From: a virus
Virus record (IMG/VR): IMGVR_UViG_3300044644_000945
Span: 24,325 to 88,324 of that record
Length of the DNA: 64,000 nt
Strand: one strand, 5' to 3'
In this document: piece after piece, positions 14,725-31,644 of the stretch
Layout of the letters: every line of letters starts with the position of its first letter
Numbering within the stretch: the first letter of the stretch is position 1
Position numbers and translations under genes: made by a program
Notes under the pieces: generated by a model
The model's database searches: none
What the model was told of the DNA's origin: nothing
The model's input: only the letters and a program-made list of their open reading frames with translations

Positions 14725-15114
14725 TTATTTCTTTTTAAATTTGTTAAACAATTCTAACAATTCATGAAGATTGTAATATCTTCTTGTAAGAGCTGTATGT
14801 TTATCTTCATTATAATAAAGACTGTTATACGTATTGCGTGCATAATACAAACCACGATTTTTATTACCATGATATATACTAAAATGATTTTGTCTCCATT
14901 CAAGAAATTCTATAACATGTTTGTTTAAATCTTCCTCACTATACATTCTTTCTGATTGCCATTTAGCACCTTCAATAAATGATTTTTCTGAATCATCTCT
15001 TATAGTTTGATTGCTGTGATTTTTAGCAGCATCTATAAGCGCTTGGTTTGGTTCAGCAGGATTTACTATACCATCAATAAAGATTTCAATGTCTTGTTTA
15101 GGTTCTTGTTTCAT
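14725..15114 (-). CDS. hypothetical protein
   Basis: This 129-aa protein has, in its middle, FIEGAKWQSERMYSEEDL, a phrase common in phage proteins of the small helper type often annotated only as hypothetical. It overlaps the 66-aa gene by 17 bases. Confidence 0.6.
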   Translation of the reverse strand: MKQEPKQDIEIFIDGIVNPAEPNQALIDAAKNHSNQTIRDDSEKSFIEGAKWQSERMYSEEDLNKHVIEFLEWRQNHFSIYHGNKNRGLYYARNTYNSLYYNEDKHTALTRRYYNLHELLELFNKFKKK

Positions 15115-15298
15115 AATAAAAATTTGGTGTATAATTAGTATTAGTTATTTCACTAACACTTGTTATTCTTTTTAAAATTCTTTTTCCTTTTGTAAAGTTT
15201 CTAACAGCTTCCATAATATTGGTAGCTTCTACAATTTCTTCAAGGTCTGTGGCTTCATCATTACGTTCTGCCCAGTAACATACTAAATATTTTTTCAT
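15098..15298 (-). CDS. hypothetical small protein
   Basis: This 66-aa protein (MKKYLVCYWAERNDEATDLE...) resembles short phage proteins of unknown role. It is the first gene downstream of the structured RNA at 15316-15498, whose transcript would run into its leader. Confidence 0.6.
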   Translation of the reverse strand: MKKYLVCYWAERNDEATDLEEIVEATNIMEAVRNFTKGKRILKRITSVSEITNTNYTPNFYYETRT

Positions 15299-15315: not shown

Positions 15316-15498
15316 AACACATGCTAACTCATACCAAGGAATTCAACCTTGAGTCTTACTACTTCTGTCTTGGTCATTGTCCTCGTATCTTGCTAATACT
15401 AAAATATCATAGATATTGTTCTTAGTGTCGTTCCTGTCCTAGCGCGTTGCAGGCAAGCGATGTTTTAGCAACCTAAACTATATGAGTCAGCATGTGTT
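15316..15498 (-). ncRNA. structured non-coding RNA closed by an 18-bp stem
   Basis: Bases 15316-15333 and 15481-15498 are complementary over 18 positions; the only non-Watson-Crick position is a G-U pair if the minus strand is transcribed, which fits the direction of the genes around. Inside, read on the minus strand, TTGCTAA pairs with TTAGCAA, an ACTAA/TTAGT helix encloses ATATC/GATAT, and CAAGG/CCTTG forms a T-arm-like hairpin next to the closing stem. No frame with a start codon uses this stretch. I match it to no known RNA family by eye. Confidence 0.7.
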
Positions 15499-15503
15499 TA
15501 ATT

Positions 15504-17333
15504 TTACATAATTGTCTTTGATTTTATAAGCTTATCTACTCTTTTAGATACATAAGCTATAATATCATTTGGAAGATTTTTGATATCAGTCATCTTAATG
15601 TGATAATCAAACATTTCTTCACAAGGAACATGTTCTTCTATGGCAATCTGAATTACTTGAAAACCAAGTGATTGCGCCATAGTAACTTTCTTTCTGGTAT
15701 CATCAATGGCTTTTTGACCATCATAACCACTTGCATATGGAGCACCATCAGAGATAACAAACAACAAACAAGGATCTTGATTCATAGATCTTATCTTTTT
15801 AGCAACAGCATATATGGCATGACCATCTCTGTTGTTATGTCTTGCAGATATATCACCTAGTGTATAACCATTGATACCTTTACCATGTTCTACATATGTA
15901 CGTATCATGGTATCACCATATGATCCTCCACCACCTCCATCTGCAGTATGACCATATACATATATTCTTGCATCTGGTACTTTTCTAAATACCTCATACA
16001 AGAATATAGCAGCTTGTCTTGCTTTCTTGATTTTGTGACCATCCATAGAACCAGACTCATCTACTAACACACCTATGTTAAGCTTGTTAGTCTTAACTTC
16101 ACCAAATCTTTCATAGATGGTAGGTACATTTTGCTTAGCTTCTGCAATCTTGTTAGTATCAAGTCTACCAGAACGCATAGATTTCATAGCAAACTGATAA
16201 TCTTTACATTTTCTAGCAAACAATTGTGCTAACACAGATGCTTTACATGTATCTATTTCTTTAAGTTCTCTTTGATATCTAGCTTTATCTACTTCTGGCT
16301 TAATAAACTTAATAGTACTATCGTCTGAATTACCATCAGAATCATAGTTATGTTTCTTAGGTGGAGCATTTTTCTCATCCATGTCTTCAGTAAAATCCTG
16401 AAATTCTTTCATAGACTCTTCATCTTCTTCTACTGGAGCACCACTCATCATCTGTTCCATCAAAGATTTAGCAAGGTCATTCATATCATCAGCTGTAGGA
16501 CCAGGATTTGGACAAGAACCATCTGGTTCAGGTTCTTCTTCATTATCTTTGATGTACTTTTTAACTACACCATGCATGTAAGAAGCTTGTTGTTCACATT
16601 CTTGAGAAGTACTAGGAAAACCATGTTTTTTTACATAGCTTTCAATTTGTTTGATAGGTTTCTCAAACTCTTGCATCTCTTCTTCAGTAATATGTGCAGG
16701 ATATCTTAGAAACTTAGTAATAAGCTCTAACAATCTTTTACCTTCATGTTCTTCAGAAGACAATGGTTCATATGTTTCATCAAACTTATGTTGCTTATAC
16801 TTTTGCACAAACTTACTATATCCTGGAAATCTTTCTGCAAGCTTTTTATTTACACGCTCTGTGTTTAAGATTGTAAATAACAAATCTTTAGGTGTAGTCC
16901 TAGTATCAGGAGACATAGCATTCATAGTACGTACATAATCACCTTTACCTTGCATTGTTGCAAGAGCTGCATTTTGTATAGCTGCACCATAAAATGCATC
17001 TAGCAATTTTGTGTCATGATTTTTATACTTTCCATCTTCACCTTTTAGCATAGTAAGTGGTACATGTATAGTTGGTGCAGTAGTAGCTCTTACATCTTGT
17101 CTTTGCAACTTAGATGTAAGTTTCATGTCTTTTGTGACATTCATAACTTTAAACATACTACCAATCATGTTAGCAGCTGTTTTAAGATTTTGTGTATCTC
17201 TTACAAAATATGAAGAGTAACCACTTCTAGGTGCATCATCCCAGTCAAACAACTCATTTCTTTTGTCATAAAAAGAATATGCATCTTCTTCTTTTCTTCT
17301 AAACCAATCTCTATTAAAACCTATTTTACTCAT
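15504..17333 (-). CDS. VWA-domain protein, cobaltochelatase CobT-like
   Basis: This 609-aa protein has an acidic middle (about 285-340) and a C-terminal VWA domain whose metal-ion-dependent adhesion site begins with DESGS near residue 425, followed later by ISDGAPYASGYDG. CobT and related VWA proteins work with a MoxR/CobS-type AAA+ ATPase; the gene directly upstream encodes one. Such pairs occur in T4-like and other large phages, and their role there is not known. Metal insertion or protein remodelling are possibilities. Confidence 0.8.
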   Translation of the reverse strand: MSKIGFNRDWFRRKEEDAYSFYDKRNELFDWDDAPRSGYSSYFVRDTQNLKTAANMIGSMFKVMNVTKDMKLTSKLQRQDVRATTAPTIHVPLTMLKGEDGKYKNHDTKLLDAFYGAAIQNAALATMQGKGDYVRTMNAMSPDTRTTPKDLLFTILNTERVNKKLAERFPGYSKFVQKYKQHKFDETYEPLSSEEHEGKRLLELITKFLRYPAHITEEEMQEFEKPIKQIESYVKKHGFPSTSQECEQQASYMHGVVKKYIKDNEEEPEPDGSCPNPGPTADDMNDLAKSLMEQMMSGAPVEEDEESMKEFQDFTEDMDEKNAPPKKHNYDSDGNSDDSTIKFIKPEVDKARYQRELKEIDTCKASVLAQLFARKCKDYQFAMKSMRSGRLDTNKIAEAKQNVPTIYERFGEVKTNKLNIGVLVDESGSMDGHKIKKARQAAIFLYEVFRKVPDARIYVYGHTADGGGGGSYGDTMIRTYVEHGKGINGYTLGDISARHNNRDGHAIYAVAKKIRSMNQDPCLLFVISDGAPYASGYDGQKAIDDTRKKVTMAQSLGFQVIQIAIEEHVPCEEMFDYHIKMTDIKNLPNDIIAYVSKRVDKLIKSKTIM

Positions 17334-31259: not shown

Positions 31260-31578
31260 GGGGGTGACTGGTTTTGACAGGTCATTAGTAGGTAGTACAA
31301 TCAGCCAGAGAGATAACTGTAAACTAAGGTGAATTTAATAAATGGCAAAAACACAATCAGTGTAGTATCTCTAGGAGACAACGCACAAGTAGAAGCTAAC
31401 ATGAACAAAGTATTCTCTTTATTAGGAGAAGAAGTTGCTGTAGCAGCCTAGATTAAAAAGATTTCTCTGTTAGATTAAACAGAGTGGTGGATTGCTCAAG
31501 CCAAGCTTGACCCTATAAGCTGTATAAATTGTATTATTGATCATGGTTTGGACAGGGGTTCGACTCCCCTCACCTCCA
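31260..31578 (+). ncRNA. ssrA: tmRNA
   Basis: The ends form a tRNA-like part: GGGGGTG at the 5' end pairs with CACCTCC at the 3' end (one G-U), and AGGGG-TTCGACT-CCCCT is the T-arm. GACTGGTTTTGACAGG is typical of tmRNA 5' ends. The reading frame restarts best at GGA (31425), giving tag GEEVAVAA and a TAG stop at 31449. TTTATTA just before it matches the resume context that I recall from Bacteroides. A CTCTGTT/AACAGAG hairpin follows the stop. CCA is not encoded. It would rescue stalled ribosomes during infection. Confidence 0.9.
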
Positions 31579-31644
31579 CAAAATGTACAGTATTCTGTAC
31601 AAAATTGCACATTATGTGTGAAATAACCAACATTGAGAGAAGAA

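Follow-up and report, generated by a model that had tools for sequence, protein, structure and literature searches.

Judging from sequence comparison, an element of 183 nt on the minus strand of the window (the whole 64,000-nt stretch of viral DNA analysed here, taken from a virus record of 88,324 bases) is probably a real RNA that we found described nowhere. Comparison with homologues shows a conserved phage RNA of predicted tRNA fold, comprising a 14-18-pair acceptor-like stem, a D-arm, a T-arm, the elbow pair 19-56 and an insert of 96-109 nt; the window RNA is predicted to be a tRNA-like fold in which the long closing stem stands at the acceptor place and is followed by U8-R9, the D-arm, the insert and the T-arm (Table 1).

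Position and fold of the window RNA

The element fills the gap between the gene for a VWA protein and a 66-aa ORF, starting 5 nt past the VWA stop codon and ending 17 nt before the next ATG, and no minus-strand frame stays open across its length. A preliminary description had placed an RNA in this gap and had pointed to the complementarity of its ends (15481-15498 with 15316-15333; 18 positions, one G-U on the minus strand); the gap is indeed occupied by the element, between VWA (ending at 15504) and the 66-aa ORF (starting at 15298), and the complementarity is borne out by both the sequence and the fold. The minus-strand RNA folds at -54.1 kcal/mol (z -4.55) and the plus-strand RNA, more weakly, at -46.5 kcal/mol (z -3.22), each beating 200 of 200 dinucleotide shuffles; two relatives introduced below, L007 (z -1.27) and G043 (z -1.36), are not clearly more stable than their shuffles.

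The T-arm-like hairpin of the preliminary description is found at 15334-15352, as described, and was a real clue; the whole predicted tRNA fold around it, with U8-R9, D-arm, T-arm and elbow pairs, had been missed. A long-range TTGCTAA/TTAGCAA pairing also proposed there (minus strand, 15465-15471 with 15390-15396) is present in the window but is not conserved, since L004, the closest relative, has the same D-arm as the window and no TTAGCAA, which makes the pairing impossible. This helix belongs to the free fold of the window RNA and would break or compete with the D-arm: the energy model favours the free fold at -54.1, with the D-arm broken, over the fold at -48.7 with D- and T-arm forced.

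Every member of the family reads, from 5' to 3', as P1, a U-A or U-G spacer, GUUU and AAAC enclosing a loop of 8-9 nt, 96-109 nt of insert, the T-arm and P1'. The T-arm has six T-stem positions and a 7-nt loop and is stacked on the closing stem, which counts 14-18 pairs across the family, so that P1 and T-stem together form a stack of 20-24 pairs. The cloverleaf order, U8, D-arm, T-arm and elbow pairs expected of a tRNA are all found; CCA is not encoded at the tRNA-like 3' end.

Table 1. Parts of the tRNA-like RNA and its neighbouring genes, in window coordinates
Feature	Position	Strand	Remarks
Whole tRNA-like RNA (predicted)	15316..15498	minus	length 183 nt; 5' terminus at 15498
5' strand of P1, the extended acceptor-like stem (18 pairs)	15481..15498	minus	14 inner pairs modelled
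UA spacer, tRNA positions 8-9	15479..15480	minus	U8 in 6/6; R9 = A or G
D-arm GUUU-AGGUUGCUA-AAAC, loop with G18 C19	15462..15478	minus	stem invariant 6/6
Insert domain replacing anticodon arm, 109 nt	15353..15461	minus	96-109 nt across family
P2 5' strand, anticodon-stem analogue, CUUGC, weak	15453..15457	minus	p 0.02 for window sequence
P2 3' strand, GUAAG	15355..15359	minus	
Motif GACAAU-N6-GACA	15366..15381	minus	other spacings; 5/6 members
T-arm UCAAGG-UUGAAUU-CCUUGG, G56 in loop	15334..15352	minus	5/6 pairs with double changes
P1 3' strand	15316..15333	minus	
Upstream gene, CobT-like VWA protein, 609 aa	15504..17333	minus	context only
Downstream 66-aa ORF	15098..15298	minus	context only

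Relatives and covariation

The family consists of six distinct sequences on eight phage records, all uncultured: G000 (the record of the window), G046 (carrying L004), G001, G047 (carrying L007) with G045, G002, and G043 with G044. G047 and G045 are identical over the element, and G043 and G044 over 180 bases. The VWA gene found no relatives in IMG/VR. The neighbouring MoxR-type ATPase, used as a query, led to 67 loci, among them L004, where a homologue follows VWA with a closing stem that is unrelated in sequence yet still complementary. L007, and later G001 and G002, were first picked out by a script seeking a T-arm stacked on a long stem. A covariance model built from the window and L004 alone recovers L007 at 6.8e-7 among 70 sources; with filters off and five sources the same model scores L007 at 47.5, G001 at 43.7 and G002 at 43.3 bits, the next match reaching 12.4. 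A second model, built from five members, gave the sixth member in L307, which equals L316 (G043; 99.6 bits), and in 43 records searched whole it made three strong matches, namely G000, G001 and G002.

No match was obtained by DNA similarity with four queries (the window region, G001, L007 and G043) against 50,697 phage records, nor at E 0.01 by the covariance model R2 (best 0.28) in nine phage records selected on their VWA or terminase similarity, with phi14:2 taken by its accession. Gapped DNA patterns were run against viral and genome collections, and the best-pairing extras among the matches listed seem to be neighbouring ordinary tRNA genes; R2 over 300 loci from these listed matches reached at best 25.9 bits (E 0.12), loci L442-L477 being covered by the script scan only and not by R2. 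The settings of this script differed between runs: the mismatch rule of one run lost L004 and L007, G043 (with a bulge in P1) is absent from the listing of another, and reversed-sequence controls in five of the six runs gave 0, 0, 6, 1 and 1 hits. On other viral contigs, two seemingly ordinary tRNA genes (L306:4044-4145; L260:2526-2625, minus) have a leader and a trailer complementary to each other, which lengthens the acceptor stem to 20 and 17 Watson-Crick pairs, respectively; a long P1 alone is therefore not special.

In the six-row alignment 97.9% of 143 cells pair, against 40-50% in slid versions, and 18 of 24 pairs have changed on both sides, a number reached in 0 of 500 shuffles, the alignment having been fitted to the tRNA-like structure, which favours the pair count. 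Double changes affect 13 of the 14 modelled P1 pairs and five of the six T-stem pairs. Such covariation, proposed in the preliminary description as a check on its discrete structured RNA, is thus seen in the homologues and backs that idea; the closing stem is kept as a stem with its sequence free. The D-stem never varies (6/6 members), so that covariation is silent on it, for or against, and assignment of the putative D-arm rests on its position, its loop content and the tertiary pairs. Using tRNA numbering, we assigned the elbow pair 19-56 as C-G with T-loop UUGAANU in the window, L004 and G001, and as G-C with T-loop UUCAAUU in L007, G002 and G043; this switch coincides with one clade split and counts as one event. 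The pair 15-48, assigned in the same way, is G-C in the window and L004, A-U in L007, G002 and G043, and unformed in G001.

Five of the six inserts contain GACAAU and GACA separated by 2-8 nt, an arrangement present in 0 to 49 of 3000 shuffled inserts (0-1.6%); the insert of G001 is the one without it. The distance from this motif to the T-stem is 13, 13, 3, 25 and 25 nt in the window, L004, L007, G002 and G043, respectively. The helix P2 at the base of the insert stands out clearly in L004, G002 and G043 and is weak in the window; in G001 and L007 it does not exceed chance. Its combined Fisher p of 5e-5 counts G002 and G043 as independent and is too small, because these two share the same helix. 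P2 is offset by 0-5 nt on the 5' side and 1-6 nt on the 3' side, and tRNA geometry is not kept.

Gene context and possible function

The members occupy four different gene contexts with co-directional flanking genes. The window and L004 elements both follow VWA; in L007 and G045 the elements lie after a 170-aa ORF and before one whose first residues read as metallophosphatase-like; those of G002 and G043 follow a 186-aa ORF; and that of G001 lies between ORFs of 102 and 139 aa. In G002 a homologue of the 170-aa ORF of L007 ends 717 nt upstream of the element, so the L007 and G002 sites lie close together and are partly related. Co-transcription of the window RNA with VWA, as suggested in the preliminary description, is plausible, and since other members follow other genes, VWA is no fixed partner of the RNA. 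The elements begin 5-9 nt past the upstream stop (window, L007, G002, G043) and end 11-49 nt before the next ATG (window, L007, G001, G002, G043). Directly upstream of the main RNA, two phages, L004 and G001, carry another tRNA-like RNA, which is smaller and likewise has a lengthened acceptor stem (L004:5932-6037; L083:14902-15016, minus).

The terminase of the phage resembles those of crAss-like phages of Bacteroidota (tblastn, 131 of 50,697 phage records; 24-27% identity among the 15 matches listed), from which we infer a Bacteroidota host. The window also holds a full tmRNA gene (31260-31579, plus strand; tag ANMNKVFSLLGEEVAVAA) adjoining a tRNA-Met, and its record is the only one of 11 tested to exceed the tmRNA cut-off. 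Among related phages, 90-155-nt genes resembling tRNA-Leu/Ser occur, often with AGTCAGG...CCTGACT and with inserts in the anticodon region (L013:16242-16366, L014:13529-13666, L015:10572-10671, L017:10463-10608, L023:12223-12362, L025:10906-11012, L027:6806-6960, L035:956-1094, L009:326-433 and L056:15846-15935), on which default ARAGORN makes no call; by our own reading those of L015 and L027 have a D-loop hairpin. A tRNA of G001 (L078:3315-3388, minus) has the anticodon CTA and may be an amber suppressor, and one phage contig has a cluster of tRNA-like genes with common TAGTCAGG/CCTGACTA stems (L119:6940-7542), two of which are called by ARAGORN (His, Ile).

We propose, giving the idea about an even chance, that the element is a phage-encoded tRNA mimic acting in trans. 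It would be transcribed together with the operon, cut out of the operon mRNA at or near P1, either by RNase III or by single-strand cuts and trimming, and kept stable, its elbow being treated like that of a tRNA; 20-24 pairs are long enough for RNase III in principle, and the tRNA elbow is read by TruB, TrmA, RNase P and EF-Tu. The effector part would be the insert, which carries the GACAAU..GACA motif. Most likely the RNA would tie up or redirect a tRNA-handling host factor, serving either as a decoy for a defence that cleaves tRNAs or, like the YrlA Y RNA, as a tether, two options that sequence cannot tell apart. That the neighbours change while the body is kept argues for action in trans, and the tight packing speaks for the RNA being released from the transcript of the operon; against the tRNA mimic, packing between genes suits a cis role too, and the family has only six members. 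More tentatively, and less likely than not, the family may represent a new class in which a tRNA scaffold bears a conserved effector domain for the anticodon arm and acts as decoy or tether against tRNA-based defence or RNA turnover. If so, the phage relatives would hold a toolbox of tRNA-derived RNAs, to which both the small tandem RNAs of L004 and G001 and the class II-like RNAs of other relatives would belong.

The main rival is punctuation in cis, in which the fold marks an RNase P or RNase III cut site separating the mRNAs on its two sides, and the RNA released by the cut serves no additional purpose. The close spacing to the upstream stop (5-9 nt) and the next ATG (11-49 nt) and the freedom of P1 to vary in sequence would suit it; a cut signal, however, needs no domain of 96-109 nt with a kept motif, and the neighbours vary among phages. 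This explanation is rather unlikely. It is improbable that the RNA belongs to the Y RNAs as a divergent phage member related to YrlA and tethering host Ro60/Rsr. The plan is the same in words, a large 5'/3' stem and a D/T-arm domain within 90-150 nt (accessible part of PMC8394870), but the YrlA model RF02553 matches the element in none of the eight records (nor does it find anything above cut-off in 14 control genomes), TROVE is absent from all 16 phage records examined with a positive Deinobacterium control, and the adjacent VWA is CobT-like. In addition, P1 lacks conserved sequence, unlike the Ro-binding stem.

A tRNA gene with an anticodon-loop intron, spliced to a working tRNA, would present a cloverleaf with an insert at the anticodon, and ARAGORN with a lowered threshold and introns allowed makes doubtful calls; at normal settings with introns allowed it makes none on the element, the P2 offsets (5' 0-5, 3' 1-6 nt) leave no five-pair anticodon stem in tRNA geometry around the insert, the closing stem has 14-18 pairs and not 7, and the insert is below group I intron size. 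We consider this origin decidedly improbable. A decaying, functionless tRNA gene would be in keeping with the many odd tRNA-like genes with inserts in relatives of the phage, and is highly improbable given that the compensatory changes and the kept motif show selection. Scarcely credible is a small mobile DNA element with terminal inverted repeats: 18-bp complementary ends enclose 183 bp in the window, where ATTA happens to flank the copy on both sides, but the ends differ wholly among relatives and yet stay complementary, L004, L007, G002 and G043 have no flanking repeat, and the element is single-copy in G000, with one match per record in G001 and G002.

Comparison with known RNAs

The preliminary description knew of no named family for this RNA, and in Rfam no family matches it at gathering scores and none fits at permissive scores, where the matches are to snoRNA, lncRNA and other models, far under their cut-offs. 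The best permissive match for the window element, snoU36a (E 0.023), aligns over the T-arm stretch, lies far below its cut-off and was rejected. The literature searched, outside which most subscription papers lie, contained no description of this RNA.

With tRNA (RF00005) the phage RNA shares the way in which acceptor, U8-R9, D-arm, T-arm and elbow pair 19-56 are ordered and spaced. In the all-Rfam scan the tRNA model, which is independent of our alignment, aligns the acceptor, D-arm and T-arm of G044 and leaves 90 nt at the anticodon (24.4 bits against a gathering cut-off of 29; E 0.0039); it also reaches G043 (E 3e-4) and G002 (E 0.038), thus three of the eight records, and does not reach the members in the window, L004, L007 and G001. 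In contrast to tRNA, the phage RNA has an acceptor stem of 14-18 pairs and not 7, no anticodon arm with a 7-nt loop, no CCA and no score above gathering. tmRNA (RF00023) likewise joins a tRNA-like end domain to a large insert, whereas the phage RNA has a D-stem and about half the size, with no match to the model and, by our own reading of the frames, no tag frame ending in Ala-Ala at the element. GOLLD, ROOL and OLE are far larger, and the phage RNA differs from them in having no Rfam match. They are described, in the accessible part of PMC12286853, as large structured bacterial RNAs of unclear function. RNAC and RNAD of T4, whose function is yet to be found according to the accessible part of PMC9697503, are phage small RNAs like the present one, a likeness by description, since they are not known to us as tRNA-like.

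On our best reading, the nearest in kind would be the bacterial Y RNAs, with YrlA nearest in plan. YrlA carries its Ro stem elsewhere than at the acceptor ends or the anticodon, and Ro binding needs a conserved stem motif; the phage RNA, in contrast, has a P1 without sequence conservation, ends at the acceptor and bears its extra domain at the anticodon. In PMC8394870, YrlA RNAs are described as modular and roughly 90-150 nt long; their two ends form a large stem, and D and T arms are present in a tRNA-like domain. By this description, the large end stem and the D/T-arm domain are shared with the phage RNA; the tRNA-like domain of YrlA has been suggested, in the accessible text of PMC7790460, as a possible competitive inhibitor of anticodon nuclease. 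The phage family would make testable what phages gain from non-decoding tRNA-like RNAs, and since ARAGORN misses the element, more of them may hide between phage genes. Bacterial tRNA mimicry is known from tmRNA and Y RNAs, and a phage family that keeps the elbow and has the anticodon replaced would add a third plan.
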